Shown piece by piece: positions 1 to 34,378 of a stretch of 64,000 nt of DNA (its first letter is position 1; each line of letters opens with the position of its first letter). This stretch comes from Chrysoperla carnea (Eukaryota > Arthropoda > Insecta > Neuroptera > Chrysopidae). Below the pieces are notes generated by a model. It was not told where the DNA came from and made no database searches. It saw nothing but the letters and a program-made list of their open reading frames with translations. The position numbers and the translations under genes are program-made. The stretch lies in contig NC_058342.1 in assembly GCF_905475395.1 (NCBI RefSeq), forward strand, positions 2,180,501-2,244,500. Direction: 5' to 3'.

Positions 1-446
1 TTACATTGAACATAAATTGTTTCTACAGGTAAAATATTAACTGTATTGTCGCTTTCATGTCTTTTATTTGCATCTAGTTTTCGTTTATTAAATCCCAACA
101 TGCGACAAACAGAATCTGATGGTTCACAGTTTATTATCACAGTACACTTTATTTCACATTTTAATGTATTTGTATTAGCATTTATTTGTAGTGTCACCTC
201 ATCACCTACAGCTTCTTTTAAATAACGTTCAATATCTTCAACTTCATAAGATCCTGGCGGTATTTCTATGACTTTATCATCGTAATAAAACATATTATTT
301 TGGCCGTGAATATTAGGGATGGAATTGTACGCTTGTAAATCTACTACACCCATTTCATAATTCTCATTTTTATCCAATTCAATTGGTGGAGAAAAGTCTG
401 TTGTTAAAAAAGAGCTATCCCCCGTAAAAGTAAGCATGTATGACAT
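1..446 (-). CDS. Penton-like minor capsid protein, N-terminal 148 residues, cut by window edge
   Basis: Reading from the ATG at 446 the frame stays open for 148 codons to the edge of the window, so the C-terminus lies outside. The N-terminus runs from a short beta-strand-like 'LTFTGDSSFL' to a 'PPIEL' turn and then 'DLQAYNSIPNI'. This is the signature start of the minor (penton-base-like) capsid proteins of insect Polintons and adintoviruses, which form the vertices of the icosahedral shell. That family assignment rests on recognised pattern and on the neighbours: protease, core protein and packaging ATPase follow at once. The stop of the protease gene is only 34 bases upstream, so the genes may share a transcript. 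The major capsid protein is expected beyond the left edge. No break is seen in the visible part. Confidence 0.72.
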   Translation of the reverse strand, partial: MSYMLTFTGDSSFLTTDFSPPIELDKNENYEMGVVDLQAYNSIPNIHGQNNMFYYDDKVIEIPPGSYEVEDIERYLKEAVGDEVTLQINANTNTLKCEIKCTVIINCEPSDSVCRMLGFNKRKLDANKRHESDNTVNILPVETIYVQC

Positions 447-480
447 CTTGATGAATGATGTGAATACAAGACTTGCTGGT

Positions 481-843
481 TTATTTATTTAATAAAAATT
501 GTAAACATAGATGTCCACATATCGGAGTATTAAATTGTTGTTGTCTATCAAAATTATATTGAATGTCACATCCGTTAAAATATTGAATGACTTCCGCTGG
601 CGGTCTTAAATTTCCAAAGCTATCAAAATAGATTACATTTCTATTATACTTTTTATATGCCGTCCAGTGTGTGCCACTATTTTTAGATAAATCATGGTTG
701 ATAATTCCTGTTTCATATTTATATGGTCTTTTGGGTAGGGTGTCACGCATAAAAACACCACGAAAATACGGAATTTTAAATTGTTTAGCATACGCACGTA
801 GCTCCGTATCGTAAAGTGCTCTACGTGGTAGCGTTTCAATTAG
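481..843 (-). CDS. Adenain-like cysteine maturation protease, likely made by -1 frameshifting
   Basis: Adenovirus-type (C5 family) cysteine protease, which processes capsid and core proteins inside assembling particles. The triad is visible: His in 'GTHWTAY', Asp in 'YFDSFG' and the nucleophile in 'ICGHLC', preceded by 'FRGVFMRDTLPKRP', typical of Polinton proteases. About 120 codons are open from 843 to the stop at 481. The first ATG (750) comes after conserved N-terminal sequence, and the frame upstream has no ATG before a stop at 898-900. The frame is -1 relative to the core-protein gene and joins it exactly at an A_AAA_AAC heptamer. I infer expression as a C-terminal extension of the core protein, possibly freed by self-cleavage. 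A short form from the internal ATG at 750 would keep all three catalytic residues and is the main alternative. Confidence 0.8.
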   Translation of the reverse strand, partial: LIETLPRRALYDTELRAYAKQFKIPYFRGVFMRDTLPKRPYKYETGIINHDLSKNSGTHWTAYKKYNRNVIYFDSFGNLRPPAEVIQYFNGCDIQYNFDRQQQFNTPICGHLCLQFLLNK

Positions 844-849
844 TTTTTT
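795..849 (-). promoter_or_regulatory. Candidate -1 ribosomal frameshift signal
   Basis: On the minus strand, 849-843 reads A_AAA_AAC in the zero frame of the core-protein gene, and the next codon is its TAA stop (842-840). The -1 frame entered here is the protease frame. Downstream, CACGTAG (827-821) is perfectly complementary to CTACGTG (801-795), giving a 7-bp stem with a 19-nt loop starting 15 nt after the heptamer. That spacing is longer than the usual 5-9 nt, so the stimulatory role of this stem is uncertain. The heptamer type is an established efficient slip site in retroviruses and coronaviruses. Confidence 0.65.
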
Positions 850-1607
850 GCTAAATATAATCCCATGCCTTTGTTGTATGGTCTTAAATACAAGCCTTTA
901 CCCATTGCTATAGCTTCCATTGTTTTGTTGTGTCTTTGACTCTCATTAAGTTGATTACGAGCACTTTTATAATTTGTAACGGCTTTAGCAATACCCGACG
1001 CTCCGCCAGCCAAAGCACCTAAAGCAGAGAGTCCTGCGAATATGGGAATTAATGGAAGTACACCACCAGACTTTGGAACCGGTATTACACGTGTGGGTGC
1101 TTTAATACGTTGACCTCGCACGGCTGCTTTTGCAATTTTTACCGCTGCTTTTAAGTCCGTTGGTTGTGATTTTTTCAATGCATTTCGTGCCTTTCGCACT
1201 GATGCTGTAAAGTTTATAGTTTTCTTTGACTTTTTCGCCTTTTTCTTTTTTTTTAATCCCATACCAAGTGAAGTTTTTGCCTTCATGGCGCTTGTAACGA
1301 ATAAAGCGGATGCTTTTTCTCCAATTGTTGAATCAGATGCTTTGGTACGTTTCCAAGCGGCTTCAGCTAATTGTTTATCTGCTATATGGCGCTCCTTTAA
1401 GTCTTTACTTTTTGAATATGCTATATCATGCACCATACAAGCCTGATCCAATGCGTTTTTTGGTTTATCACCACGCGCTAATCGCTCCTTCAGCTTAGTT
1501 CCAGGTCCACAATATCGATAAGTTGGTATGTGTAATTCGAACGGTAATTTATTTATAAGTGTGTTAACAATACCGCTTCCTTTGTGTTGTTGCTTCTGAC
1601 ATGACAT
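840..1607 (-). CDS. Core/minor virion protein with parvovirus-type phospholipase A2 domain
   Basis: 255 residues from the ATG at 1607; the frame is open further upstream but without another ATG. The PLA2 fold signature is complete: calcium loop YCGPGT (residues 32-37) and catalytic helix D54-xx-C57-xx-H60-D61-xx-Y64. In parvoviruses and adintoviruses this domain releases particles from endosomes by cutting membrane phospholipids. It is followed by a lysine block (about 119-129, DNA-condensing in style), a Gly/Ala-rich hydrophobic stretch (about 181-211) and two GLYL-type repeats at the C-terminus, reminiscent of adenovirus core peptides. The gene is divergent from the packaging ATPase across ~90 bp and flows into the protease frame at its 3' end. 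It appears intact. The enzymatic role is inferred from the motif only. Confidence 0.8.
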   Translation of the reverse strand: MSCQKQQHKGSGIVNTLINKLPFELHIPTYRYCGPGTKLKERLARGDKPKNALDQACMVHDIAYSKSKDLKERHIADKQLAEAAWKRTKASDSTIGEKASALFVTSAMKAKTSLGMGLKKKKKAKKSKKTINFTASVRKARNALKKSQPTDLKAAVKIAKAAVRGQRIKAPTRVIPVPKSGGVLPLIPIFAGLSALGALAGGASGIAKAVTNYKSARNQLNESQRHNKTMEAIAMGKGLYLRPYNKGMGLYLAKN

Positions 1608-1650: not shown

Positions 1651-1690
1651 GTTTATAAAATGGTTTGTTTTGAAATTTTAGTCTTAGTTA
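1651..1690 (+). promoter_or_regulatory. Shared TATA box between core-protein and ATPase genes
   Basis: TTTATAAA at 1652-1659 is self-complementary and can serve both directions. For the plus-strand ATPase gene, an initiator-like TTAGTT has its A at 1686, 32 bases after the first T of TATAAA (1654). This places the start of transcription just before the ATG at 1699 and rules out the upstream ATG at 1660. No clear initiator is seen on the minus strand. Confidence 0.5.
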
Positions 1691-1698
1691 CATTAAAA

Positions 1699-2382
1699 AT
1701 GCGTTTCCATAAACAACAGCCCGCTCTGAGTGTTGAAAATTTAATACCAGAAAATAGAGAGACACAAACATATCATGGTCCTCTATTTTCAGATTCACTA
1801 CGAACAATAATATGTGGTGCTAGTGGATGTGGGAAAACCAATCTTATGTTGAATTTAATTTACGATGAAAACGGTTTACGTTTTGAAAACATTTACGTTT
1901 ATAGTAAATCCCTTTATCAACCGAAATATAAATTGCTAGAAGAAACTTTAAAACTGGTGGAGGGGGTCGGCTATTTTCCATTTAGTGATACCAGTGAAAT
2001 TCTTAGTCCGAATGAAGCTAATGAAAAAAGTCTTTTTATTTTTGACGATGTGAGCTGCCATTCACAACAGCGAATCAGGGAATATTTTAGCATGTCACGC
2101 CACAGAAAAATTGATTGCTTTTACTTATGTCAGAGCTATGCACGTATTCCAAAACATAACATTAGAGATAACGTCAATTGCTTGGTCCTATTCAAAATGG
2201 ACGATTTGAATCTGAAACACACATTCTACGATCATGTAGGTTCTGATATGAATTTTCAAAAATTTCAAGATTTATGTCGACATTGTTGGATGTCTCCGAA
2301 TGGATTTGTTGTAATAATGAAAAATTTCCCTATGAATGCTGGCCGGTATAGGAATGGATTCGACGAATTTATTGAATTATAG
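1699..2382 (+). CDS. A32/FtsK-HerA type DNA-packaging ATPase
   Basis: 227 residues. Walker A is GASGCGKT and Walker B is LFIFDDV, about 70 residues later, followed by a sensor-like 'FYLCQSY'. This is the compact genome-packaging ATPase shared by Polintons, adintoviruses, virophages and poxvirus A32, which pumps DNA into the capsid. The length fits the family. An ATG at 1660 in the same frame would add 13 hydrophobic residues, but it lies upstream of the predicted transcription start at ~1686, so I choose 1699. The gene is divergent from the core-protein gene. No frameshift or stop interrupts it and all key residues are present. Confidence 0.88.
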   Translation: MRFHKQQPALSVENLIPENRETQTYHGPLFSDSLRTIICGASGCGKTNLMLNLIYDENGLRFENIYVYSKSLYQPKYKLLEETLKLVEGVGYFPFSDTSEILSPNEANEKSLFIFDDVSCHSQQRIREYFSMSRHRKIDCFYLCQSYARIPKHNIRDNVNCLVLFKMDDLNLKHTFYDHVGSDMNFQKFQDLCRHCWMSPNGFVVIMKNFPMNAGRYRNGFDEFIEL

Positions 2383-7240: not shown

Positions 7241-10200
7241 TCACGAATTAACTATACATTTTTTCTTTTTGATGCAAGGTTCATCTATATATTCAGCTTT
7301 TCGTTTATAGGTTGTAGTATTCAAAGAATAGTGACCCCAGGGTAGTGTATCATAGGAACCAGGTATAATATATCGCTTATCATCATAAGGGCTTAGAGCA
7401 ATTTTTGTCTGAGTTTGGGTGTAAAGCTTAAGTTTATCAGATTTTATGAGGTTTTGATCAACTGATATCTCTTTAAATTCCTCCAAACATTCAACATAAT
7501 CTTCAAATGTTATTTTCGTACTAAGAACTGACCTTTTAACTCCCTTAGCTTTTTTTGTTAACCCAAGATTATTTGATTCTTGTTTAATATTCCCATGATT
7601 AAATATAGAATCATCAAGCGATTTTGTTTGTTTTTCTAGAGGGGTTGCCATTTTTAATGTATATAATTTTGATCGTAATCCTACAAAATGAGTCATAGGA
7701 GTTCCATTGTTTTCATCCTTCATCATACCAAGCACTTTCTTATTAACGCAAGGTATATTATAAACATTAGAAGGATGGTAATCACTGGTATCAAAATACT
7801 TGTGACAATCTCTTTTTATCATTTCATAAGGATCATGGTTTTTAATTTCGTAAATAACCGAGTCAGTATCTGTATAGATAGCGGTAGAATCTTCACCCAG
7901 CTGTGGAATCATATAGCCATAATGAAAATCATAAATTGTAGTTTTAGCTAAATCTAAGATTGCCATACCAATATACAAAGGCTTATTGAAGAATATATCC
8001 ATCTTTTTCAACTCAATGGCCACCAAGTTTGAATTGAAAATTGTACAAGAATGAAATTGGGGTTTAGATATATAAGCTTCTGCCCCATATCGACCCTCCC
8101 ATTTTGTAACAAGCTTTACATTAGAATGTTTCCTAATATTTTCCATTGTTTTTCCAAAGACGGCATTGTTCATTAATTTATACAAATTTTTCTCAAAATC
8201 ATTATTAGCATTCTTTCGTAGTTTGGTATTTAAATCAATATAATTATGATTGAAGCCAAGGCGACTGTTTAAATTTTAAAACTTTATGAATTTTTTCTAA
8301 TTTTAGCCCATTGTTTAATGCCTGCTTCAATGTTCTATAATGAATTACATATCGCTCTTTATCATGAAGAGTACCCATCAATTTACTCTGTTTAGAATTA
8401 GGTGCTGATCTATGTTCAGGGCAAAAAGGTAAATCCTTATGTTTATCATGAAGTTTTTCAGGATATTTGAGATCAACTTCTAAGAAATATCCATTATCGG
8501 CATCATCCGAAATTATTGAAACATCAATATTTGTATCACACCACTCAAAACCACTGTAAGGAAGACACTGACTCATCGCCCATCCATATTGATTGTTAAT
8601 GTCTAAATAAAGTAAATGCACTTCAGGCTTGGATGAATCAAATCCTGAAACGTATTTATTATTCGCTGTAGAACGTCGTTTCATACATTGACTCAAACCA
8701 CCGCGAATTCCTCGTTCAACAAACATCATCATATCTATATCAGTCAACAATTCGAACTCAATATTTGTATACTTCAACATACATTCCCACGTATATCCCG
8801 CTAATGTATAGTAATTTCTCGGGTCAAGGTTGTATGTAGACAGGCAGGTTGCTCTAAACGTTTCGAAAATATCCGTAAGTAGCATTATATCCGTTTCCAT
8901 ATAGAGATCTACATAATCACCTAAATTTGAACAATTAAATGCTGACCAAACGTTTTGCGCATGATGATACATTTGTCTAGAACACTGTTTCTCCTCCAAT
9001 CGATTATAGAATGCTTCTATGTTCGATAGTTGAGTGTAATTAAATTTATCAAACGAATCAACAAAATCATATGGCATTACACCTTTCTTTGTCAACAATT
9101 GAAACTGATTTTCCGAAATTTTAGAAAAATGCTTCCTCATGTTGGGAAATTCCAACAAGTATGATGCTAGCTTATCGAGGGAAGACGCTAAAAATCTATA
9201 CGAATCTATGAAACGGAATTTAATAGATGAATCATCAATGTTTTTGGTAAAAGAAATATATTTTTCTTTAGTAACAGGTAGTAGTTCAACGCGTCCACCA
9301 ATCTTTGTTGCAACATCCTCCACAATCAATATACCATCATAATTCGACATATTACGGAAAACTACAGGAACCACATGACTGTCTTGATAGTTAATATTAC
9401 ATGTGCGGGACCTCTATAATTAGTTCCATCTCTATATCCACCACTTTTCGACATAAGATGAAAATGGTCTCGAACTTTTTTCTCTCCATCAACAAACGGC
9501 TTATTGCATATATGACAACATGATGATTTTAGAAAATCTTCCTCTTCAATGATAGTTAATGGATCCATCTCATATGAACATAAAAATATTGTTTCTACTT
9601 CTTCAGATATTCGCATCAATTCCTTTGTAAACCAATCCATACAATCCATTCCCCGATATGAACGATAATATGATAGGGAATCATCATAAGCACATTTAAA
9701 ATAATACCCCACAACAGCAGGTATATGTTTTTGATATCGAATTTTATCATCCATTGGTTCCAATACACTTTCAATGTCTGCGTAGATAATAAAAGGTGTT
9801 TTCTCTTTATTTTTAAAATTTTTAAACTTTAAAATATTTTCTCCAACTTTCGGCATTCTTATCGCACATTCATTTATTTTCTTACAATTCTCATAATGGG
9901 TGTTCAATTTTTCTTCCGTGTAGAAATAATGTAAGCATCGCTCACAGAAAAACTTTTTGTGACCTTGTTTATTCAGTTGAGTTGAAACCAAACGGGATAG
10001 ATTTTTAATCCAAACGTAATGATAACGAGTAGGTAATAAATTATCATTACAATCATCCCCAATATCATCATAATGATTCTGAATCATCAATAAGTTTATA
10101 TGTTTAGTCATTTTATTTTTGCTCAGATAGCATGGTACAACATTAAAGTTTTTTCGATGTTTCTTCAGTACATAAACATTTATCGATACTTCATTTTGAT

Positions 10201-11095
10201 TTTCAAAATTTGGAATCTGCTTCAAGGTCATAGGGAATTGGATACTTTTCAATTTCAATACCTTTGAATAATGTGAGTATCTTAATACTCGATCATGATT
10301 CTTCTCAACAGGATACAATGCTGACGTCACAGCCCACGCAAAGCATGCATTATCATCATTCTTTACGTTTATACAAGCTTCCAGTCGTTTGATTTGGGTA
10401 GGTAGTTCAATATATGACGATCCAAGTAATGGTGTATATTTATTTATATTAACACCAAGGTTAATAATGTTTACTAGAGTCCAACCACTGTTGCGTTCCT
10501 CGAATTCTTCCAAATCACGTGTTATCGGACCGACAACATTCTTCCCAAACCATTCATTCACATCAGTATTCTGATATATTGGATTATTTGAAGTAGTGAA
10601 GTATTTGTGTTCAGTTATCATTTTGTTTGCAGATACAATTTGAAATTCTCCACAGAAAATAACGTTAACTTTTATAGCTTCATGAATTTTCAGAACGTTA
10701 CTTATTCTTCGTCGAAAAAGTGCTTCACAATCCTTCAAAAATGCTTTAGGATCTTTATGTTTCAGATTACTAATAATACCAGTTCTAAGCCGACTCTCAA
10801 ATGCAGATAGGGAATCATCCCATCGTACTCTCTTTACAGCCGTCTCTTTTCGACTTTGAACACCTGCTCCGTGCTTTAACATACACTTAAGATTGCAACG
10901 ATAACTTTTTACAAGAGCCAAGTTTGCTAACAAATTTTGCTTTTTACCAACAGATTTTGCAGCTTTCAATTTTTTACATATCCGTCGAACAGCAATATTG
11001 CAATTTTTCAAGCCATCTCTAATAATCAATTTATTAGCAGTCATGGTGTCGATAGATTTTATTTTCTCCAACAAAGTAGACATTGAGTACATCAT
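7241..11095 (-). pseudogene. Protein-primed family B DNA polymerase (PolB), left copy, broken
   Basis: Polinton-type PolB with N-terminal extension, 3'-5' exonuclease and polymerase. The gene starts at ATG 11095, directly after a leader intron (11811-11112). It is split at ~9401 by a -1 frame change shared with the right copy, and again at ~8240 by a 4-bp insertion found only here, giving three open pieces (11095-9362, 9374-8244, 8185-7241). It also differs from the right copy at about ten residues, for example GEDSTAI against GDDSTAT just before motif C. Catalytic motifs are as described for the right copy. With two frame breaks it cannot make a full enzyme without rescue. Confidence 0.88.
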
Positions 11096-11111
11096 TTTCA
11101 CTGTATGAAAC

Positions 11112-11811
11112 CTAGAAATGATATAAGAAAAAATAGGTTTTAATCCTATAATATATAAACAATAATTATAATTCAAATACATGAAGATAAACGAACTTTT
11201 ACAAATATTACTGATATTATCACATAGAAAAAATTAAATTTTATATATATGTGTACAGTAATGCTGAACCTAAAACATAATTTTGTAATAGTTTAGATTT
11301 TCATATAAACCAAACATTCTCAATATCTATGTTTTATATACCTAAATCATATAGATAACTGCCCGTTTTGTAAGCGGGTCTTACAGATATCATGATTTGA
11401 TACAATCACCCATATAGAGCTACTTCATTAATACACAGATAGAAAACGTTGATTTTAATAGTATACAATCTAATCGAAACAATAAAACTATTTCATTTTT
11501 CACTTTACTTCAAACCCTTTACGACTCTAAGATCCTATAAGTAGCTCAATTTTCATATAAACCAAACATTCTCAATATCTATGTTTTATATACCTAAATC
11601 ATATAGATAACTGCCCGTTTTGTAAGCGGGTCTTACAGATATCATGATTTGATACAATCACCCATATAGAGCTACTTCATTAATACACAGATAGAAAACG
11701 TTGATTTTAATAGTATACAATCTAATCCAAACAAAAATATATTCTAGTTTTCACTTCGCTTTATCATTACAAAGTAATAGATAGATGACGTGTTCGTGTT
11801 ATGAAACTTAC
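11112..11811 (-). other. Leader (5'UTR) intron of left PolB with 179-bp direct repeats
   Basis: Donor AAG|GTAAGTTTC at 11811 and acceptor TTTCTAG at 11112 bracket 700 nt ending 16 nt before the PolB ATG. Inside are two direct repeats of 179 bp (11549-11727 and 11297-11475). It mirrors the right arm exactly. Confidence 0.6.
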
Positions 11812-11965
11812 CTTACAACAACAATAATCAACAGTTATATATTTTTTAAGACACACAAACTTTACAACAATGTTCACGATATATAACACACTTTTATTAT
11901 AATAATTTTTAAGGCACTTTTATTATGATTATTAATAACTTGTTCACTTTCACTGTAAATATTCA

Positions 11966-12002
11966 ACTGAGTCAGGTCAAGGAAATAACTCTGCTTATAT
12001 AC
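11966..12002 (-). promoter_or_regulatory. TATA/TCAGTT promoter of left PolB
   Basis: TATATAAG on the minus strand at 12001-11994 and TCAGTT with its A at 11968, 33 bases downstream. This is the mirror image of the right-arm promoter. Confidence 0.6.
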
Positions 12003-12580
12003 GTTTTTCAAAATTGAAATATTTGAACATGTTTTGACATGTAAAAAATTGTTCTAGAACATTATTTTATAGTTTAACAATTTGAAAAATAGATTATATA
12101 TAATAGACAAGAAAGTTTTTATAAATAATAGTTGTTACATTTCCATTTTTAATGTTTTTTTTTTGTTTTTTTTGTTTTTTTTTTTTTTTAAAGTAAGCAA
12201 TATGACACTTGAAATTTACATAATAAAAATACATGTTCAAACTTGTTTGAATCGACTTTGATCTTAAAATAATTTTACACGTGTACTTTAGTCAGCAATT
12301 TTCAAGAATATGTTGAAATAGATTTGACATTGAAAAATATGATATCATCAACCTGTTACAAGTTCAAACTTGTTTGAATCGACTTAAAATAATTTTACAT
12401 GTGTCAAGACACGTGACCGGATGTTAATATTTTTTTATTGAATCAGCAAATATTTTTTTTTTTTTTTTAATGAAATAAGATGAATCAGCAGTGTAATTTT
12501 ATAAATCACAAGTATGTTCACAAAAGCGGTCCACTATGACAAATTTTTATTGTTACAAGTATGTTCATAAAAACGGTCCA

Positions 12581-12765
12581 CTATGAAATAAGACCTTTTT
12601 TATCAATATATGAATCGTGTAAAGAGTCGAACCCTAACCACCGGACTTTAAATTTGGAGCTAAGACCTTTTCCACTAAATAAATGTTTGGATCGTGAACT
12701 TTTTGTAATTCTTCGGCATAGAAACCACCCTATATATCTTCGTTGCTGTAATCCTTCAATAAATA
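12581..12765 (-). pseudogene. Integrase C-terminal (chromodomain-like) remnant, left arm
   Basis: Mirror of 14586-14770. Read on the minus strand it gives the C-terminal part of a Polinton retrovirus-like integrase, including 'GGFYAEELQKV', with one premature TAG and a frame change. It abuts the 16-bp minisatellite directly, so the catalytic core is absent. See the right-arm entry. Confidence 0.6.
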
Positions 12766-13457
12766 TGCAGGTCTGTTTCTAAACAGGTCTGTTTCTAAAC
12801 AGGTCTCTTTCTAAACAGGTCTGTTTCTAAACAGGTCTGTTTCTAAACAGGTCTCTTTCTAAACAGGTCTGTTTCTAAACAGGTCTGTTTCTAAACAGGT
12901 CTGTTTCTAAACAGGTCTGTATCTAAACAGGTCTCTTTCTAAACAGGTCTCTTTCTAAACAGGTCTGTTTCTAAACAGGTCTGTATCTAAACAGGTCTCT
13001 TTCTAAACAGGTCTCTTTCTAAACAGGTCTGTTTCTAAACAGGTCTGTTTCTAAACAGGTCTCTTTCTAAACAGGTCTCTTTCTAAACAGGTCTGTTTCT
13101 AAACAGGTCTGTTTCTAAACAGGTCTGTTTCTAAACAGGTCTGTTTCTAAACAGGTCTGTTTCTAAACAGGTCTGTATCTAAACAGGTTTCTTTCTAAAC
13201 AGGTCTGTTTCTAAACAGGTCTGTTTCTAATCAGGTCTGTTTCTAAACAGGTCTGTTTCTAAACAGGTCTGTTTCTAATCAGGTCTGTTTCTAAACAGGT
13301 CTGTTTCTAAACAGGTCTCTTTCTAAACAGGTCTGTTTCTAAACAGGTCTGTTTCTAAACAGGTCTCTTTCTAAACAGGTCTGTTTCTAAACAGGTCTCT
13401 TTCTAAACAGGTCTCTTTCTAAACAGGTCTGTTTCTAAACAGGTCTGTTTCTAAACA
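12766..13457 (+). repeat. 16-bp minisatellite, left block (~43 units)
   Basis: Head-to-tail copies of AAACAGGTCTGTTTCT with two main variants, CTCTTTCT and CTGTATCT, at the second half. Each unit holds the interrupted palindrome AAACAG-GT-CTGTTT. The block ends at ~13,458, where the unit flips to its reverse complement at CTAAACAggtaTGTTTAG. Confidence 0.95.
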
Positions 13458-14585
13458 GGTATGTTTAGAAAGAGACCTGTTTAGAAACAGACCTGTTTAG
13501 AAACAGACCTGTTTAGAAACAGACCTGTTTAGAAACTGACCTGTTTAGAAACAGACCTGTTTAGAAACAGACCTGTTTAGAAAGAGACCTGTTTAGAAAG
13601 AGACCTGTTTAGAAACAGACCTGTTTAGAAACAGACCTGTTTAGAAACAGACCTGTTTAGAAAGAGACCTGTTTAGATACACACCTGTTTAGAAACAGAC
13701 CTGTTTAGAAACAGACCTGTTTAGAAACAGACCTGTTTAGAAACAGACCTGTTTAGAAAGAGACCTGTTTAGAAACAGACCTGTTTAGAAACAGACCTGT
13801 TTAGAAAGAGGCCTGTTTAGAAAGAGACCTGTTTAGATACAGACCTGTTTAGAAACAGACCTGTTTAGAAATAGACCTGTTTAGAAAGAGACCTGTTTAG
13901 ATACAGACCTGTTTAGAAACAGACCTGTTTAGAAACAGACCTGTTTAGAAACAGACCTGTTTAGAAAGAGACCTGTTTAGAAAGAGACCTGTTTAGAAAC
14001 AGACCCGTTTAGAAAGAGACCTGTTTAGAAACAGACCTGTTTAGAAACAGACCTGGTTAGAAAGAGACCTGTTTAGAAACAGACCTGTTTAGAAACAGAC
14101 CTGTTTAGAAAGAGACCTGTTTAGAAAGAGACCTGTTTAGAAACAGACCTGTTTAGAAACAGACCTGTTTAGAAACAGACCTGTTTAGAAAGAGACCTGT
14201 TTAGATACAGACCTGTTTAGAAACAGACCTGTTTAGAAACAGACCTGTTTAGAAACAGACCTGTTTAGAAACAGACCTGTTTAGAAAGAGACCTGTTTAG
14301 AAACAGACCTGTTTAGAAACAGACCTGTTTAGATACAGACCTGTTTAGAAAGAGACCTGTTTAGATACAGACCTGTTTAGAAACAGACCTGTTTAGAAAG
14401 AGACCTGTGTAGAAAGAGACCTGTTTAGATACAGACCTGTTTAGAAACAGACCTGTTTAGAAACAGACCTGTTTAGAAACAGACCTGTTTAGAAAGAGAC
14501 CTGTTTAGAAACAGACCTGTTTAGAAACAGACCTGTTTAGAAAGAGACCTGTTTAGAAACAGACCTGTTTAGAAACAGACCTGCA
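13458..14585 (-). repeat. 16-bp minisatellite, right block (~70 units, inverted)
   Basis: Reverse-complement units AGAAACAGACCTGTTT with the same variant types (AGAAAGAG, AGATACAG). It is about 430 bp longer than the left block, which is why the midpoint of the arms (~13,675) and the flip point (~13,458) differ. It ends abruptly against the integrase remnant. Confidence 0.95.
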
Positions 14586-14770
14586 TATTTATTGAAGGAT
14601 TACAGCAACGAAGATATATAGGGTGGTTTCTATGCCGAAGAATTACAAAAAGTTCACGATCCAAACATTTATTTAGTGGAAAAGGTCTTAGCTCCAAATT
14701 TAAAGTCCGGTGGTTAGGGTTCGACTCTTTACACGATTCATATATTGATAAAAAAGGTCTTATTTCATAG
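14586..14770 (+). pseudogene. Integrase C-terminal (chromodomain-like) remnant, right arm
   Basis: One frame from 14586 reads 'YLLKDYSNEDI', a TAG stop, then 'GGFYAEELQKVHDPNIYLVE' onward, and a second frame from 14714 reads 'LGFDSLHDSYIDKKG'. This is the recognisable end of the retrovirus-like integrase of Polintons, where a 'FY-x-E-x-LQKV' strand leads into a chromodomain. It has at least one stop and one frame change. Everything upstream, including the DDE core, is replaced by the 16-bp minisatellite. It lies in the same direction as PolB, ~580 bp before its promoter. Family assignment comes from recognised pattern only. Confidence 0.6.
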
Positions 14771-14929
14771 TGGACCGTTTTTATGAACATACTTGTAACA
14801 ATAAAAATTTGTCATAGTGGACCGCTTTTGTGAACATACTTGTGATTTATAAAATTACACTGCTGATTCATCTTATTTCATTAAAAAAAAAAAAAAATAT
14901 TTGCTGATTCAATAAAAAAATATTAACAT

Positions 14930-15120
14930 CCGGTCACGTGTCTTGACACATGTAAAATTATTTTAAGTCGATTCAAACAAGTTTGAACTTGTAACAGGTT
15001 GATGATATCATATTTTTCAAGGTCAAATCTATTTCAACATATTCTTGAAAATTGCTGACTAAAGTACACGTGTAAAATTATTTTAAGATCAAAGTCGATT
15101 CAAACAAGTTTGAACATGTA
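14930..15120. repeat. Paired 16-bp palindromes in right arm
   Basis: TTCAAACAAGTTTGAA occurs at 14972-14987 and 15099-15114, each preceded by a TGTAAAATTATTTTAAG block (the second within CACGTGTAAAATTA). The left arm has the mirror copies at 12236-12251 and 12363-12378, and 5460-5475 holds a fifth perfect copy. A bound protein or replication-start role is possible. Confidence 0.5.
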
Positions 15121-15346
15121 TTTTTATTATGTAAATTTCAAGTGTCATATTGCTTACTTTGAAAAAAAAAAAAAACAAAAAAAACAAAAAAAAAACATTA
15201 AAAATGGAAATGTAACAACTATTATTTATAAAAACTTTCTTGTCTATTATATATAATCTATTTTTCAAATTGTTAAACTATAAAATAATGTTCTAGAACA
15301 ATTTTTTACATGTCAAAACATGTTCAAATATTTCAATTTTGAAAAA

Positions 15347-15387
15347 CGTATATAAGCAGAGTTATTTCCTTGACCTGACTCAGTTGA
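15347..15387 (+). promoter_or_regulatory. TATA/TCAGTT promoter of right PolB
   Basis: TATATAAG at 15349-15356 and TCAGTT with its A at 15382, 33 bases downstream, matching the arthropod TCAGT initiator. The transcript would carry a ~157-nt first exon to the donor at 15539. Confidence 0.65.
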
Positions 15388-15538
15388 ATATTTACAGTGA
15401 AAGTGAACAAGTTATTAATAATCATAATAAAAGTGCCTTAAAAATTATTATAATAAAAGTGTGTTATATATCGTGAACATTGTTGTAAAGTTTGTGTGTC
15501 TTAAAAAATATATAACTGTTGATTATTGTTGTTGTAAG

Positions 15539-16238
15539 GTAAGTTTCATAACACGAACACGTCATCTATCTATTACTTTGTAATGATAAAGCGAAGTGAA
15601 AACTAGAATATATTTTTGTTTGGATTAGATTGTATACTATTAAAATCAACGTTTTCTATCTGTGTATTAATGAAGTAGCTCTATATGGGTGATTGTATCA
15701 AATCATGAAATCTGTAAGACCCGCTTACAAAACGGGCAGTTATCTATATGATTTAGGTATATAAAACATAGATATTGAGAATGTTTGGTTTATATGAAAA
15801 TTGAGCTACTTATAGGATCTTAGAGTCGTAAAGGGTTTGAAGTAAAGTGAAAAATGAAATAGTTTTATTGTTTCGATTAGATTGTATACTATTAAAATCA
15901 ACGTTTTCTATCTGTGTATTAATGAAGTAGCTCTATATGGGTGATTGTATCAAATCATGATATCTGTAAGACCCGCTTACAAAACGGGCAGTTATCTATA
16001 TGATTTAGGTATATAAAACATAGATATTGAGAATGTTTGGTTTATATGAAAATCTAAACTATTACAAAATTATGTTTTAGGTTCAGCATTACTGTACACA
16101 TATATATAAAATTTTATTTTTTCTATGTGATAATATCAGTAATATTTGTAAAAGTTCGTTTATCTTCATGTATTTGAATTATAATTATTGTTTATATATT
16201 ATAGGATTAAAACCTATTTTTTCTTATATCATTTCTAG
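15539..16238 (+). other. Leader (5'UTR) intron of right PolB with 179-bp direct repeats
   Basis: Donor AAG|GTAAGTTTC at 15539 and acceptor TTCTTATATCATTTCTAG ending at 16238. Two 179-bp direct repeats, 252 bp apart (15623-15801 and 15875-16053), fill the middle. Each holds GGTATATAAAACAT and a small CCCG-CTTACAAAA-CGGG hairpin. Splicing explains why the true PolB start is 16255 and not the upstream in-frame ATG at 16168, which lies inside the intron. Confidence 0.6.
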
Positions 16239-16254
16239 GTTTCATACAGTGAAA

Positions 16255-19200
16255 ATGATGTACTCAATGTCTACTTTGTTGGAGAAAATAAAATCTATCG
16301 ACACCATGACTGCTAATAAATTGAATATTGGAGATGGATTGAAAAATTGCAATATTGCTGTTCGACGGATATGTAAAAAATTGAAAGCTGCAAAATCTGT
16401 TGGTAAAAAGCAAAATTTGTTAGCAAACTTGGCTCTTGTAAAAAGTTATCGTTGCAATCTTAAGTGTATGTTAAAGCACGAGGCAGGTGTTCAAAGTCGA
16501 AAAGAGACGGCTGTAAAGAGAGTACGATGGGATGATTCCCTATCTGCATTTGAGAGTCGGCTTAGAACTGGTATTATTAGTAATCTGAAACATAAAGATC
16601 CTAAAGCATTTTTGAAGGATTGTGAAGCACTTTTTCGACGAAGAATAAGTAACGTTCTGAAAATTCATGAAGCTATAAAAGTTAACGTTATTTTCTGTGG
16701 AGAATTTCAAATTGTATCTGCAAACAAAATGATAACTGAACACAAATACTTCACTACTTCAAATAATCCAATATATCAGAATACTGATGTGAATGAATGG
16801 TTTGGGAAGAATGTTGTCGGTCCGATAACACGTGATTTGGAAGAATTCGAGGAACGCAACAGTGGTTGGACTCTAGTAAACATTATTAACCTTGGTGTTA
16901 ATATAAATAAATATACACCATTACTTGGATCGTCATATATTGAACTACCTACCCAAATCAAACGACTAGAAGCTTGTATAAACGTAAAGAATGATGATAA
17001 TGCATGCTTTGCGTGGGCTGTGACGTCAGCATTGTATCCTGTTGAGAAGAATCATGATCGAGTATTAAGATACTCACATTATTCAAAGGTATTGAAATTG
17101 AAAAGTATCCAATTCCCTATGACCTTGAAGCAGATTCCAAATTTTGAAAATCAAAATGAAGTATCGATAAATGTTTATGTACTGAAGAAACATCGAAAAA
17201 ACTTTAATGTTGTACCATGCTATCTGAGCAAAAATAAAATGACTAAACATATAAACTTATTGATGATTCAGAATCATTATGATGATATTGGGGATGATTG
17301 TAATGATAATTTATTACCTACTCGTTATCATTACGTTTGGATTAAAAATCTATCCCGTTTGGTTTCAACTCAACTGAATAAACAAGGTCACAAAAAGTTT
17401 TTCTGTGAGCGATGCTTACATTATTTCTACACGGAAGAAAAATTGAACACCCATTATGAGAATTGTAAGAAAATAAATGAATGTGCGATAAGAATGCCGA
17501 AAGTTGGAGAAAATATTTTAAAGTTTAAAAATTTTAAAAATAAAGAGAAAACACCTTTTATTATCTACGCAGACATTGAAAGTGTATTGGAACCAATGGA
17601 TGATAAAATTCGATATCAAAAACATATACCTGCTGTTGTGGGGTATTATTTTAAATGTGCTTATGATGATTCCCTATCATATTATCGTTCATATCGGGGA
17701 ATGGATTGTATGGATTGGTTTACAAAGGAATTGATGCGAATATCTGAAGAAGTAGAAACAATATTTTTATGTTCATATGAGATGGATCCATTAACTATCA
17801 TTGAAGAGGAAGATTTTCTAAAATCATCATGTTGTCATATATGCAATAAGCCGTTTGTTGATGGAGAGAAAAAAGTTCGAGACCATTTTCATCTTATGTC
17901 GAAAAGTGGTGGATATAGAGATGGAACTAATTATAGAGGTCCCGCACATGTAATATTAACTATCAAGACAGTCATGTGGTTCCTGTAGTTTTCCGTAATA
18001 TGTCGAATTATGATGGTATATTGATTGTGGAGGATGTTGCAACAAAGATTGGTGGACGCGTTGAACTACTACCTGTTACTAAAGAAAAATATATTTCTTT
18101 TACCAAAAACATTGATGATTCATCTATTAAATTCCGTTTCATAGATTCGTATAGATTTTTAGCGTCTTCCCTCGATAAGCTAGCATCATACTTGTTGGAA
18201 TTTCCCAACATGAGGAAGCATTTTTCTAAAATTTCGGAAAATCAGTTTCAATTGTTGACAAAGAAAGGTGTAATGCCATATGATTTTGTTGATTCGTTTG
18301 ATAAATTTAATTACACTCAACTATCGAACATAGAAGCATTCTATAATCGATTGGAGGAGAAACAGTGTTCTAGACAAATGTATCATCATGCGCAAAACGT
18401 TTGGTCAGCATTTAATTGTTCAAATTTAGGTGATTATGTAGATCTCTATATGGAAACGGATATAATGCTACTTACGGATATTTTCGAAACGTTTAGAGCA
18501 ACCTGCCTGTCTACATACAACCTTGACCCGGGAAATTACTATACATTAGCGGGATATACGTGGGAATGTATGTTGAAGTATACAAATATTGAGCTCGAAT
18601 TGTTGACTGATATAGATATGATGATGTTTGTTGAACGAGGAATTCGCTGTGGTTTGAGTCAATGTATGAAACGACGTTCTACAGCGAATAATAAATACGT
18701 TTCAGGATTTGATTCATCCAAGCCTGAAGTGCATTTACTTTATTTAGACATTAACAATCAATATGGATGGGCGATGAGTCAGTGTCTTCCTTACAGTGGT
18801 TTTGAGTGGTGTGATACAAATATTGATGTTTCAATGATTTCGGATGATGCCGATAATGGATATTTCTTAGAAGTTGATCTCAAATATCCTGAAAAACTTC
18901 ATGATAAACATAAGGATTTACCTTTTTGCCCTGAACATAGATCAGCACCTAATTCTAAACAGAGTAAATTGATGGGTACTCTTCATGATAAAGAGCGATA
19001 TGTAATTCATTATAGAACATTGAAGCAGGCATTAAACAATGGGCTAAAATTAGAAAAAATTCATAAAGTTTTAAAATTTAAACAGTCGCCTTGGCTTCAA
19101 TCATATATTGATTTAAATACCAAACTACGAAAGAATGCTAATAATGATTTTGAGAAAAATTTGTATAAATTAATGAACAATGCCGTCTTTGGAAAAACAA

Positions 19201-20105
19201 TGGAAAATATTAGGAAACATTCTAATGTAAAGCTTGTTACAAAATGGGAGGGTCGATATGGGGCAGAAGCTTATATATCTAAACCCCAATTTCATTCTTG
19301 TACAATTTTCAATTCAAACTTGGTGGCCATTGAGTTGAAAAAGATGGATATATTCTTCAATAAGCCTTTGTATATTGGTATGGCAATCTTAGATTTAGCT
19401 AAAACTACAATTTATGATTTTCATTATGGCTATATGATTCCACAGCTGGGTGATGATTCTACCGCTACCTATACAGATACTGACTCGGTTATTTACGAAA
19501 TTAAAAACCATGATCCTTATGAAATGATAAAAAGAGATTGTCGCAAGTATTTTGATACCAGTGATTACCATCCTTCTAATGTTTATAATATACCTTGCGT
19601 TAATAAGAAAGTGCTTGGTATGATGAAGGATGAAAACAATGGAACTCCTATGACTCATTTTGTAGGATTACGATCAAAATTATATACATTAAAAATGGCA
19701 ACCCCTCTAGAAAAACAAACAAAATCGCTTGATGATTCTATATTTAATCATGGGAATATTAAACAAGAATCAAATAATCTTGGGTTAACAAAAAAAGCTA
19801 AGGGAGTTAAAAGGTCAGTTCTTAGTACGAAAATAACATTTGAAGATTATGTTGAATGTTTGGAGGAATTTAAAGAGATATCAGTTGATCAAAACCTCAT
19901 AAAATCTGATAAACTTAAGCTTTACACCCAAACTCAGACAAAAATTGCTCTAAGCCCTTATGATGATAAGCGATATATTATACCTGGTTCCTATGATACA
20001 CTACCCTGGGGTCACTATTCTTTGAATACTACAACCTATAAACGAAAAGCTGAATATATAGATGAACCTTGCATCAAAAAGAAAAAATGTATAGTTAATT
20101 CGTGA
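16255..20105 (+). pseudogene. Protein-primed family B DNA polymerase (PolB), right copy, one frame break
   Basis: Replicates linear viral DNA from a protein primer. In order: N-terminal Polinton module (~16255-17380), C2H2 finger 'CERC...H' (~17404-17460), exonuclease I 'YADIES' (~17566), a Cys/His 'CCHIC...DHFH' element (~17830-17895), exonuclease II 'NYDG' (~18006), exonuclease III 'YMETD' (18448), polymerase motif A 'LDINNQYG' (~18740), motif B 'KLMNNAVFG' (~19165) and motif C 'YTDTDS' (19470). All catalytic acids are present. The gene breaks once, at ~17949, where homology passes to the -1 frame; the pieces are 16255-17988 and 17976-20105. No slippery heptamer is in the overlap, so this looks like a mutation. 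The left copy shares it, so it predates the inverted duplication. Confidence 0.9.
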
Positions 20106-21740: not shown

Positions 21741-22497
21741 TTATCTACTCTTATTCATGTGGCCTCGAATATTTATGATCATGTCAAGAGCCCAACCGCT
21801 GTCGCGTTCCTGGAATTCTTCCAATTTTTTCAGCAAATAGTTTTTGACATGATCAGTGTACCACTCCTGCATGTCCGTTGTCAGATACATTTCCTTGGCC
21901 GACGTTATAAAAGTTTTCAAATCCTCCTCTTTGGTGCTAGGCTTAATGAAATTGCCCGTGAACATAATGTACACCTGAAATAAAATTCAAGATCTCATTA
22001 GACTATTTAAATTATAAATCTTAAATTTTACTTACCTTGAGGGGATGCTTCACTAGCTCACGCCGAACGTGTCTTCTAAACATTGGAAATGCCCGTTTGA
22101 AAAATATATTTGGATCTTTATAATCCAAATTTGTAATCATACCAGTCTTCACCCTGCCCTGGTGGTGGGCTTCAATTGTCTCCCAGATTAGATGTCGATT
22201 TTGTTTTTTGGTGACTCCACCACCTTGCTTAACTAAATCTAATCGCAGTCGGTGAAGTTGCCGCTGGTATGATTTACAAAGTCCAATATTAGCTTCAAGA
22301 CGCAGAGGATTTTCTTTCTTCAACATCAACATCTTTTTCAATAAGCGGATGTTCTGCTTATTAAGTACCATCCATCGCTCGGCTTCCGCCGTCTTGATGA
22401 GCCTCAACGCTCTCTCCACTTTCTTCATCATATCCGTGCTACCACCTTGAGGTACCGCGTTTAGCGTCTGCATAACATTTTGTTCGTAGGTGTCCAT
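21741..22497 (-). CDS. Two-exon gene for PolB N-terminal-like module, 231 residues
   Basis: Exon 1 is 22497-22036 and exon 2 is 21974-21741. The 60-nt intron (22035-21975) has donor AAG|GTAAGT and acceptor TTTATTTCAG and lies between codons. The product matches the N-terminal module of the PolB proteins here in layout: basic helical start, 'GRVKTGMITNLDYKDPNIFF' (compare 'SRLRTGIISNLKHKDPKAFL' in PolB), a 'FTGNF' strand and 'EEFQERDSGWAL' (compare 'EEFEERNSGWTL'). It stops where PolB runs on into the rest of the protein, so it is either a truncated copy or a separate short gene. Identity to the arm PolB is low, so it is another lineage. It has its own TATA/TCAGTT promoter and a possible leader intron (22555-22498). 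Confidence 0.6.
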
Positions 22498-22618
22498 CTT
22501 TCAAAAAAATTATATTTAAGTTTCACAATAATATTTAAAAAATTTTTACACTTACCGTTATATTTTCAAATACTAAGCAAAATATACGTTACCGAACGTT
22601 CAACACTAAAGTTAACTT

Positions 22619-22658
22619 ACAACTGAGTAATATTTGTTTTTTGTATAAAATATATAGA
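22619..22658 (-). promoter_or_regulatory. TATA/TCAGTT promoter of PolB N-module gene
   Basis: Minus strand TATATA starts at 22656 and TCAGTT has its A at 22624, 32 bases apart. Confidence 0.5.
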
Positions 22659-22682
22659 CTAAGTTTAGAATAATAAATATAT

Positions 22683-22685
22683 CAA

Positions 22686-22722
<37 letters not shown>
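22683..22722. repeat. (TAA)n microsatellite, target of element A1
   Basis: About 13 AAT/TAA units directly before the truncated 5' end of the first R4/Dong-like element. Confidence 0.9.
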
Positions 22723-22724
<2 letters not shown>

Positions 22725-25212
22725 GTTTTGATTCCCAAGAAAGGAGACCTTTCAGTTCCGAGCAATTATCGCCCGATTACATGTCTCAATACCGTGTACA
22801 AAGCGTTCACCTCCATTCTTAATGAACGCATACTCACAACCATAGAACCGGTTTGGCAGATGATATACGAGCAACGCGGCTCCAAACGAGGTATATCAGG
22901 TTGCAAAGATAATCTTCTTGTTGACAGATGTATCTGTCAAGACGCTCGTCAATATCAACGCGACCTGAGTATGGCCTGGGTGGATTATAGGAAAGCATTT
23001 GACACTACCTCTCACCAACTCATATTGGTGCTGCTCAAATGTTTGAAAATTCACCCCGATATCATCAGATGCATCGAAGAGCTGTTACCTTTGTGGAAGA
23101 CCAAGTTTACCATTAGATGTGGTAAACGTACTGTCTCAACAGATCTGGTAACGTATAAGCGTGGTGTCTATCAAGGCGACAGCCTTAGCCCGCTTTTATT
23201 CTGCATCTCCCTTATGCCCCTTTCCTTGCGCTTGCGAGAAGAAACTGGTTACCGTTGTGGCCCCCCGGCAGATAGGAAGCATCAGGTAACTCATCTATTC
23301 TATATGGATGACCTGAAACTTTATGCTTCTTCTGAGAGCAGTCTATCTCAAGCTCTCAAAGCTGTCCATCAGTACACGAAGGCTATTGGCATGGAATTTG
23401 GACTCGATAAATGTGCCGTCATTCATTGTAAGAGGGGTCGTGTCCCTGATTACGATGCAGACGTGCAGCTCACAGATGGAAGCATCGTGAAACATCTCGA
23501 TGAAGAAGAGCTCTACACATATTTGGGTGTCGGTGAAAACCACATTCAAAGTGTGTCTACTGTCAAGGAAGCTCTTCGCGGCAGGTATAGGCACCGTCTT
23601 CGACAAATCTGGCAATCAGAATTGTCTGGGATCCATAAGATCCGTGCTACTAATATGCTTGCAATACCCATCCTTCTCTATTCTTTTGGTTCCATCAAAT
23701 GGACAATAGAGGAGCTTAAGGAACTTGACAGAGGCACTCGCAAACTCATGAACGTCAATCGTAGTTTGCACCCACGTGCTTCTGTACCGCGTAATTACCT
23801 CCCACGCCAGCAAGGAGGTAGAGGTCTCCTATCCGTTGAATGTCTACATGATAGGGTAGTTTTAGGAATAGCTTGTCAGGTCATAAACAGTTCAGACCCT
23901 CTTATGGAACTCGTGCGCGATCATGAGTTACAGGGTAGAGGAGCATTCTTGTTCTCTGCAGCACAACATGCAGCGTCTAAATTGGGCCTTGTTTTTGATC
24001 CGTCTAATCGTGATCTTGATGATAACGTGATCCTTCTCTCCAAATCTCGACTTCGTTCAGCTGTGAAACGAGCTGAAATACGCTCCCTCTTCGAAGATCA
24101 TCGGAATCGCGACCATCAGGGAATGTTCTACCGTCATCTTGACACCTGTAGTCTTTCCGTTGATCTTACGTTCTCTTTCCTCCGATCAGCTGGACTCAAG
24201 TCCGAAACAGAAGGCTTTATCATCGCTGCCCAAGATGGTGTGATAGCGACGCTAACTCACCAAAAGTATGTATGTAAAGAAGCAGTCTCCACCACTATGT
24301 GCAGAGCGTGCAAATCTCAGCCGGAGACGCTGATGCACCTTATCTCGGCATGTCCTTCTTATGCCACGAACACCTACATACATCGCCATAACGCTGCCCT
24401 CCGCGTGCTGTACTACTTCTTGAGACACAAGTATGAAGTGGACCCTACGCCAGTTCTACCATATGCTCCAGGCGAGATCGAGTCCGTCGTCAAGAACGAG
24501 AAATGCATTATCTTCTGGAATTTCTCGTTCCCAACTACCAGGCAGCTCTCTGCTACTAAGCCTGATATAGTGCTCCAGGATATCTTATCTAAGACTATGT
24601 ACGTCATCGAGTTCTCTGCGCCTGCAGAAACGAACATAGTCACGAAGGAGGAGCAAAAACGGACTAAATATCTTGATCTCTTACAAGAACTACGACAACT
24701 ACACCCTGGCTACTCAGTCAAAATGGTTGTCCTCATTATCGGTTGCCTAGGCGGAATTCGTCCCACTCTCGAGACGAATCTATCTCAAATTCCGGTCTGC
24801 AGGTCTCATCTTCGTCACCTTATCTCTTCTATGCAGAAGGCTGTCATTATAGGCACCCTTCGTACATTGAGATCGCATCAGACTGTCTTCAAGTAACAGC
24901 CCTTGAAGTTTCTTTTTCTCTATTTTTTTTTCTTTATTTTAGTAGGTTCCACATCGCTGCGGTGCAGGGACGGAGCCTGCTTGACCAGGACATTAGACAG
25001 ACTTACGTACCACCGACTCGGAAAACAGACGGACCAACAGACGTCGCGTGGACTGACGGACGTACAGACTACACGGCCACAAGTCAGTGAACTTTCTTCA
25101 AAAGACGTAGCTGCCTTGTGAAGATTTATGTCTCTCAAGGAGATGGGAGGCTCTGGGGTGTAAATCCTGTATCCTCTCTCCCTCCTTGGCAGGCATGAAT
25201 TCGTTAATTTCA
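22723..25212 (+). mobile_element. R4/Dong-like non-LTR retrotransposon A1, 5'-truncated
   Basis: Starts inside the reverse transcriptase (position equivalent to ~36,245 of copy A2) straight after (TAA)n and ends in a ~315-bp 3'UTR followed by (TAA)n. TAA-repeat targeting and a C-terminal restriction-like endonuclease are hallmarks of the Dong branch of the R4 clade. Confidence 0.8.
22728..24896 (+). CDS. Reverse transcriptase with restriction-like endonuclease (A1), N-terminus missing
   Basis: An open frame of 722 codons. RT motifs: 'NYRPITCLN', motif A 'AWVDYRKAFD', motif B 'RGVYQGDSLSPLLF' and the active site YMDD (codons at 23301-23312). A CCHC knuckle 'CRACKSQPETLMHLISAC' (~24298-24352) precedes the endonuclease region 'KPDIVLQD...YVIEFSAP...KYLDL', which has the PD-x-E-x-K layout of restriction-like nucleases. 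It nicks target DNA and primes cDNA synthesis there. The N-terminal Myb-type DNA-binding part is lost by truncation, so this copy has no proper start and is probably inactive, although the rest is intact and could encode an active domain. Confidence 0.85.
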   Translation: MIPKKGDLSVPSNYRPITCLNTVYKAFTSILNERILTTIEPVWQMIYEQRGSKRGISGCKDNLLVDRCICQDARQYQRDLSMAWVDYRKAFDTTSHQLILVLLKCLKIHPDIIRCIEELLPLWKTKFTIRCGKRTVSTDLVTYKRGVYQGDSLSPLLFCISLMPLSLRLREETGYRCGPPADRKHQVTHLFYMDDLKLYASSESSLSQALKAVHQYTKAIGMEFGLDKCAVIHCKRGRVPDYDADVQLTDGSIVKHLDEEELYTYLGVGENHIQSVSTVKEALRGRYRHRLRQIWQSELSGIHKIRATNMLAIPILLYSFGSIKWTIEELKELDRGTRKLMNVNRSLHPRASVPRNYLPRQQGGRGLLSVECLHDRVVLGIACQVINSSDPLMELVRDHELQGRGAFLFSAAQHAASKLGLVFDPSNRDLDDNVILLSKSRLRSAVKRAEIRSLFEDHRNRDHQGMFYRHLDTCSLSVDLTFSFLRSAGLKSETEGFIIAAQDGVIATLTHQKYVCKEAVSTTMCRACKSQPETLMHLISACPSYATNTYIHRHNAALRVLYYFLRHKYEVDPTPVLPYAPGEIESVVKNEKCIIFWNFSFPTTRQLSATKPDIVLQDILSKTMYVIEFSAPAETNIVTKEEQKRTKYLDLLQELRQLHPGYSVKMVVLIIGCLGGIRPTLETNLSQIPVCRSHLRHLISSMQKAVIIGTLRTLRSHQTVFK

Positions 25213-25217
25213 AATTT

Positions 25218-25256
<39 letters not shown>

Positions 25257-25257
25257 C
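25213..25257. repeat. (TAA)n junction between A1 and B1
   Basis: About 12 units. It serves both as the 3' tail of A1 and the target of B1. Confidence 0.9.
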
Positions 25258-25327
25258 CCCCACGGGGACAACTGGTAGCCCTAGTTGTCCGGGAATTGGC
25301 GCTCCCGGGGCCCGAGCCAACCCACTT

Positions 25328-29595: not shown

Positions 29596-29713
29596 ACACA
29601 ATAAACATACATACATTTATACACACTACAAGAACAAAAATACCCTCACAAATATACACGCACACTCACACACATTCTCCGGTTCACATGACAGACCAGA
29701 ACAAGGAAAAAAC

Positions 29714-29766
29714 AGTTTACCGTCACTTGACTGTGTCCGTGCGGTAAACTAAATCGGGCTCAGCCC
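29714..29766 (+). promoter_or_regulatory. 3'UTR hairpins of B1
   Basis: AGTTTACCG (29714-29722) pairs with CGGTAAACT (29742-29750), followed by GGGCTCAGCCC (29756-29766). Such end structures are what element RTs use to recognise their RNA; that role is inferred. B2 has the same pair at ~34281-34333. Confidence 0.45.
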
Positions 29767-29786
29767 TGCTATGAAATAGATGAGAC

Positions 29787-29788
<2 letters not shown>

Positions 29789-29824
<36 letters not shown>
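29789..29824. repeat. (TAA)n junction between B1 and B2
   Basis: About 11 units joining the tail of B1 to the leader of B2. Confidence 0.9.
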
Positions 29825-29825
<1 letters not shown>

Positions 29826-29896
29826 CCCCCACGGGGACAACTGGTAGCCCTAGTTGTCCGGGAATTGGCGCTCCCGGGGCCCGAGCCAACCCACTT

Positions 29897-34162: not shown

Positions 34163-34355
34163 ACACAATAAACATACATACATTTATACACACTACAAGA
34201 ACAAAAATACCCTCACAAATATACACGCACACTCACACACATTCTCCGGTTCACATGACAGACCAGAACAAGGAAAAAACAGTTTACCGTCACTTGACTG
34301 TGTCCGTGCGGTAAACTAAATCGGGCTCAGCCCTGCTATGAAATAGATGAGACAA

Positions 34356-34378
34356 TAATAATAATAATAATAATAATA
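34356..34378. repeat. (TAA)n junction between B2 and A2
   Basis: About 8 units. A2 starts at GGGCAGGC straight after it. Confidence 0.9.

Follow-up and report, generated by a model that had tools for sequence, protein, structure and literature searches.

Likely -1 ribosomal frameshifting from a core protein into an adenain-type protease in insect Polintons/adintoviruses

How is a viral protease made when its reading frame has no start codon upstream of the conserved protein? The question is raised by the left part of a 64,000-nucleotide (nt) stretch of the Chrysoperla carnea genome (NC_058342.1, positions 2,180,501 to 2,244,500; hereafter the window), which holds a portion of a Polinton/Maverick (adintovirus-like) element that extends past the window's left end. 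There, a gene for a core protein with a phospholipase A2 (PLA2) domain, the counterpart of the insect Maverick CAP, runs into an adenain-like protease in the -1 frame (Table 1). From comparison of such junctions we consider it very likely that -1 programmed ribosomal frameshifting yields the adenain-type maturation protease of insect Polintons/adintoviruses of this group, in the form of a core-protease fusion.

On the minus strand, the core gene ends with the codons ...TTA GCA AAA AAC TAA. This places the heptamer A_AAA_AAC in the 0-frame phase X_XXY_YYZ within the overlap of the two open reading frames (ORFs), the arrangement expected of a -1 programmed frameshift site. In the -1 frame, a stop stands at 900-898 and the first ATG after it at 750-748; the frame runs on through the protease to a stop at 481. 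Both the correctly phased heptamer at the end of the core gene and the absence of an upstream protease ATG had been claimed in an initial annotation of the window, and both were confirmed. Under the proposed mechanism, most ribosomes would stop at the core stop codon and yield the PLA2-type core protein, and a minority would slip back by one base on the heptamer just before the stop, enter the -1 frame and produce a core-protease fusion. The slip site would be A_AAA_AAC in the window, A_AAU_UUU/U_UUU_UUU in one group of relatives and perhaps an upstream G_GGU_UUU in another. We infer the slippage itself, its rate and the carriage of the protease into the capsid by the fusion, as Gag-Pro does; frameshifting would then set the ratio of core protein to protease.

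We asked if the -1-frame product is a protease and where its conserved part begins. An AlphaFold2 model built from 38 aligned sequences had a mean predicted local distance difference test score of 94.1, and the six best solved-structure matches found with Foldseek were all adenoviral proteinases (query TM-score 0.68-0.73). A profile match to 1avp (E 3.8e-5) agreed, as did matches to Pfam Peptidase_C5 at E<=1 in 24 of the 38 alignment members; the window protease sequence alone gave no Pfam match. Judged by the model and these matches, the protein has the adenain (Peptidase C5) fold and falls in that family. A predicted helix (residues 13-22) and strand (28-33) precede, or end at, the first methionine, Met 33, and initiation there would delete the helix and most of the strand. 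The -1-frame N-terminus thus appears, in the model, to belong to the protease fold; the initial annotation had placed the start of the conserved N-terminus at the slip site.

To see how far this arrangement is kept, we surveyed the window's own genome (559 Mb, 337 contigs). A protease search gave 190 candidates and 150 scored matches with 100% to 42% identity, of which 89 were taken with ~900 bp of upstream sequence; the selection was by hand and omitted mostly near-identical copies and short fragments. An upstream core match was present at 75 of the 89 loci and absent at 14. Junctions were readable in 66 of the 89, where the motif at the core C-terminus and FRGV(F/Y)M could each be recognised, and the 23 in which one or both motifs went unrecognised were omitted; loci with the best core match upstream of a frame break (e.g. 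L044, L067, L072, L074, L077, L081, L095, L096) were read separately. The protease lay in the -1 frame relative to the core in 63/66 readable junctions and in frame in the other three, two of which show a length difference immediately downstream of the slip site (L034, L039) and one of which has a local length change (L058). A canonical, phase-correct heptamer was found within the overlap in 60 of the 63 -1 junctions: AAAAAAC in 40, GGGTTTT in 17 (seven also with TTTAAAA) and AAATTTT plus TTTTTTT in 3. As a measure of chance, the core bodies of 15 representatives have phase-correct canonical heptamers at 49/3049 codons, and those of 14 have AAAAAAC at 3/3035. Within the window's own family (group A below) the heptamer was intact in 31/31 compared copies, three of 34 (L031, L034, L039) having been dropped for length or frame changes. 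Conservation of the heptamer and of the -1 phase in homologous junctions, which the initial annotation had put forward as a way to check its proposal, was therefore found. Among the 14 core-less loci, three relatives of the window-family protease (L041, L047, L059) are preceded by sequence that by eye resembles the reverse complement of the start region of the window's ATPase gene, as in internal deletion derivatives.

The junctions were sorted by hand into nine groups, A-I, according to junction type. Clustering of protease-region DNA at 85% identity yielded ten clusters: D and E merged, G was split in two, and the short L099, which belongs to group A by core match, stood alone. In groups A (the window's own), B, C, D, E, F and I, an xxA AAA AAC lies 0-6 nt upstream of the core stop. 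When one representative of each was compared (B and I with shorter open stretches of 142 and 49 codons), AAA, AAC and the preceding third-position A were identical in 7/7; as a control, codons were identical in 2/38 columns that have one amino acid in >=6 of 7 representatives. The distance of the Lys-Asn pair (K-N) from the rest of the core C-terminus varies among the seven. Background codon use in core bodies is 50/179 Asn codons for AAC and 383/506 Lys codons for AAA. This codon comparison, together with a protein-level signature described below, indicates that the heptamer is conserved beyond coding need in these groups; group G has no A_AAA_AAC. In group H, the position of A_AAA_AAC is occupied by A_AAT_TTT/T_TTT_TTT in three of four loci: L077 and L078 end ...AAC AAA AAT TTT TTT TAA, L093 has CAA in place of AAA, and L072 has lost the heptamers. 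In L078 and L093, no more than 13 nt separate the opening of the -1 frame from the core stop.

In six of the nine groups, as judged from their representatives (A, C, F, I, G1-G4, H1-H2), the internal Met is the first ATG of the -1 frame. We compared nonsynonymous (pN) and synonymous (pS) differences over the 22-27 N-terminal codons of the -1 frame, through FRGVF, in ten pairs. Nine of these, taken from groups B, C, D, F and I and from within G, had pN 0.03-0.15 and pS 0.24-0.74; the tenth (L078/L093) was set aside because an insertion had misaligned it. The stretch upstream of the internal Met is thus under selection in the -1 frame between groups, including C, F, I and G, which have no other ATG. 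Since this N-terminus is under selection and an ATG is missing in some groups, it must be entered from upstream there. Taken together, the conserved -1 phase, the heptamers and the groups without ATG argue for frameshifting at the core-protease junction.

Homologues from beyond this genome point the same way. A protein database search with the core returned 2263 matches at E<=0.001; in 111 of the best 120, which were listed, K-N lies within 5 residues of the C-terminus. The residue preceding K-N is unable to have an A-ending codon in 0/111 cases, compared with 46/191 for K-N elsewhere in the same proteins. The position after it can start with T in 110/111 (26/191 in the control), being a stop in 35, F in 34, Y in 17, C in 15, S in 6 and L in 3, with a single V as the exception. 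Though these are related proteins and not independent draws, the neighbours of K-N match what A_AAA_AAY_T would demand. No full in-frame core-protease fusion occurs among the 120 listed core homologues, the longest of which has 306 residues.

Searches of viral contigs were less productive: a single protease and a core alignment each returned nothing, and a protease alignment returned one useful contig, the distant IMG/VR contig L001 (L100 is the same contig). In L001, a 207-aa core-like ORF ends in TKKKNPEF* and the protease follows in -1. The junction contains the A-run ACT AAA AAA AAA AAC (A11), the -1 stop overlaps the start of the run, and the first ATG lies in FRGVFM. The region concerned is L001 2333-3363 of a polinton-like contig; its core-like ORF is unlike the PLA2 core, yet the -1 arrangement of the protease on an A-run is shared, and a protein database search with that ORF returned only itself. 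A genome contig search yielded L002, in which the protease has its own ATG and no PLA2 core was recognised by eye among the listed neighbouring ORFs. On balance we favour the broader view that Gag-Pro-style frameshifting is ancestral and general for protease production and packaging in insect Polintons/adintoviruses and some polinton-like viruses such as L001, with heptamers (A_AAA_AAC, U_UUU_UUU/A_AAU_UUU, G_GGU_UUU) exchanged and the -1 phase kept.

Several observations weigh against frameshifting at this junction. Besides L001, the core-protease junction DNA all comes from one genome. A canonical heptamer is missing from three of the 63 -1 junctions, with a premature core stop in L035, a substitution in the run in L072 and G as the last base in L096. 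Copy L049 is an in-frame fusion that differs in length upstream of the heptamer, and in at least one of 120 listed protease homologues (P0168) the core C-terminus is read into the protease in one frame. Nine of the 120 listed core homologues do not have the terminal K-N; these include poly-lysine ends and one apparently truncated sequence. Near-identical copies of family A show no third-position excess, their 13 variable -1-frame columns being distributed 7, 2, 4 over positions 1, 2, 3, and the selection is therefore seen between groups and not among family A copies. Group G has neither A_AAA_AAC nor any slip site at the stop. Its G_GGT_TTT lies 30-33 nt upstream of the core stop in an overlap of 43-67 nt, and is weak evidence because, as estimated from the core-body frequency, some canonical heptamer is expected by chance in ~20-30% of such overlaps. 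The initial annotation had named a heptamer that is not conserved while the overlap is as a result that would speak against it; A_AAA_AAC is absent from group G, with its upstream heptamers only, and exact in seven groups. Finally, an in-frame ATG lies at the junction in the representatives of B, D and E (+5, -1 and +5 nt relative to the core stop), and in the overlap, 55 nt ahead of the core stop, in copy L014 of group A. Relatives with a separate protease ATG, also named beforehand as contrary evidence, thus exist, and the representatives of six of nine groups are without one.

We also looked for a downstream RNA element. A stimulatory stem-loop or pseudoknot 5-9 nt downstream is frequent at known -1 sites and not strictly required. 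The 7-bp stem proposed in the initial annotation (827-821/801-795, minus strand) is present and starts 15 nt after the heptamer; it is unremarkable and unsupported as a conserved element. A perfect 7-bp stem also arose in 100/500 mononucleotide shuffles of the 98-nt segment, which folds no better than its dinucleotide shuffles (z -0.67). Among 13 representatives, z was -3 or lower in two against dinucleotide shuffles (L055, L093), and the minimum free energy reached p <= 0.02 in three (A, F, H2) against synonymous shuffles. The consensus fold of seven representatives was only a 4-bp hairpin, and Rfam gave no match at E <= 1 for window 480-1100. No conserved downstream structure was found in these scans of pseudoknot-free folds, and this too counts against frameshifting. 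A candidate long-range pairing of the LPxR with the FRGVF codons, suggested by some groups, was rejected, as it reached p <= 0.05 against synonymous shuffles in only 2/13 (C, F).

The start codons in B, D and E bring up termination-reinitiation or leaky scanning, by which translation of the protease would begin at an ATG on or immediately downstream of the core stop, with the heptamer incidental. Many of the 120 listed protease homologues do start near M(K)LPxRAL, in a list that holds called ORFs only and so favours start codons. However, no such ATG is found in representatives of A, C, F, I, G and H, of which C, F, I and G still keep the -1 N-terminus, and AAAAAAC is kept exactly in B, D and E themselves. 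Several groups have near-cognate codons, at positions that are not shared, and H1 has none before LPxR. Reinitiation may contribute in B, D and E; as the explanation in place of frameshifting we regard it as unlikely. Splicing that joins core and protease in frame is less probable still. It could draw on the TTTAG that closely precedes the window's heptamer and on an AG shortly before the LPxR codons in several groups, but L078 has, by eye, no AG between slip site and LPxR, the AGs elsewhere have no shared place, and splicing leaves unexplained both the exact conservation of heptamer and codons and the replacement of the heptamer by another.

Slippage of the polymerase on an A- or T-run, giving an mRNA pool in which some molecules have the protease in frame, would lead to a similar protein product and suits the homopolymeric A6, the T8 of group H and the A11 of L001. 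We give it as little credence as splicing: A6 is short for polymerase slippage, and the G_GGU_UUU of group G is not one homopolymer, though that site is itself weak evidence. Decay, in which an indel that inactivated an ancient in-frame fusion gave the -1 offset and the heptamer is there by chance, would fit a window copy whose PolB is split and a genome in which degraded copies are common. It is contradicted by the junction survey, in which the same offset recurs across groups that separate at 85% DNA identity, and by the exact heptamer in all seven representatives; it is rather the in-frame copies, the three readable ones and L049, that carry local length changes. We consider decay the least credible of these alternatives by some way, and -1 frameshifting remains the account that we prefer.

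A_AAA_AAC sites serve -1 frameshifting in retroviral gag-pro. The likeness is close: in both, the gene of a structural protein closes with a slippery heptamer, the maturation protease is encoded in the -1 frame and a minority fusion is predicted. The system described here differs in being a double-stranded DNA (dsDNA) transposon/virus with an adenain-type cysteine protease, a PLA2 core and no detected conserved downstream stem. In adenovirus, adenain is a separate protein with a cofactor derived from pVI; the protease fold is the same and there is likewise a functional link to a core protein, whereas in the present system the fusion would attach the protease to the core C-terminus.

The initial annotation knew of no such description for this group, which is too sweeping. 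As far as the available portion of a preprint shows, -1 frameshifts have been suggested for adintovirus Penton and Hexon-Adenain ('Hexain') ORFs, based on KnotInFrame for Penton C-termini with a similar relation for Hexon-Adenain (PMC11071296). Those cases concern the same virus group and the same kind of proposal, one of them also ending in the protease; the partner here is the PLA2 core protein, and the evidence is comparative. Sf Maverick 1 and 2 have the same kind of gene pair, a CAP with PLA2 domain of 258 aa and an adenain-like PRO of 133 aa, treated as separate ORFs with no frameshift proposed in the available text (PMC5803895). The accessible parts of PMC4642659, PMC8363768, PMC8097293 and PMC12567637 do not describe a core-protease frameshift, and our literature search found no description of one, which is not proof of absence. 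If true, our proposal would extend a retrovirus-like mechanism to the dsDNA virus-transposons of eukaryotes and suggest how a protease could be counted and brought into a capsid. Annotations that present such Polinton proteases as short ORFs starting with ATG would then be wrong. That translational control is conserved is an argument for these elements being functional viruses now or in the recent past, and the prediction can be tested directly in many genomes.

Table 1. Features of the core-protease junction and of neighbouring Polinton genes in the window
Feature	Position	Strand	Basis
PLA2-domain core / minor capsid-like protein, 255 aa, end ...LAKN*	840..1607	-	ORF; Phospholip_A2_4, Pfam PF08398, E 2.5e-15
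Slippery heptamer A_AAA_AAC, phase X_XXY_YYZ, directly 5' of core stop	843..849	-	Last base of GCA + AAA AAC
Core stop codon TAA	840..842	-	Sequence reading
-1 frame with adenain-like protease	481..897	-	Open after stop 900-898, to protease stop; protease-like from ~846
First ATG of protease frame, Met 33 of 121-aa -1 translation, within FRGVFM	748..750	-	ORF reading
Packaging ATPase, Pox_A32-like, neighbouring Polinton gene	1660..2382	+	ORF and Pfam
ORF cut by window end, downstream of protease	3..446	-	ORF call
PolB region, three ORF pieces	7241..11182	-	DNA_pol_B_2 match in middle piece; first piece assigned by eye

The combination that marks Polinton/Maverick membership, PolB with a packaging ATPase and an adenain-like protease, is present in the window as DNA_pol_B_2, Pox_A32 and the adenain fold. 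Neither a retrovirus-like integrase nor a double jelly-roll capsid protein was among the nine ORFs scanned with Pfam; no targeted search was made for them, and the element leaves the window leftward. The ORF cut by the window end gave no match in Pfam or PHROGs and probably encodes a capsid protein.

PolB is apparently broken. The left copy (7241-11182) consists of three ORFs (606, 368 and 310 aa) and a right copy (16168-20105) of two (606 and 701 aa), the 606-aa ORF stopping early in both. The two halves form a near-perfect inverted duplication (window 7346-20000), with 14 mismatches in 4223 nt between 8245-12467 and 14883-19105 and 3 mismatches in 897 nt between 7346-8242 and 19104-20000, the arms being interrupted near 8243. 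At the centre of the pair (12773-14583) lies a tandem array of ~113 copies of a 16-bp, nearly palindromic unit. Further to the right, ORFs in 22000-38000 and 56391-56981 are reverse-transcriptase-like by eye and probably belong to elements of the long interspersed nuclear element (LINE) type; two long ORF sets are nearly repeated at 25328-29595 and 29897-34162, in a region with partly strong GC and AT skew.
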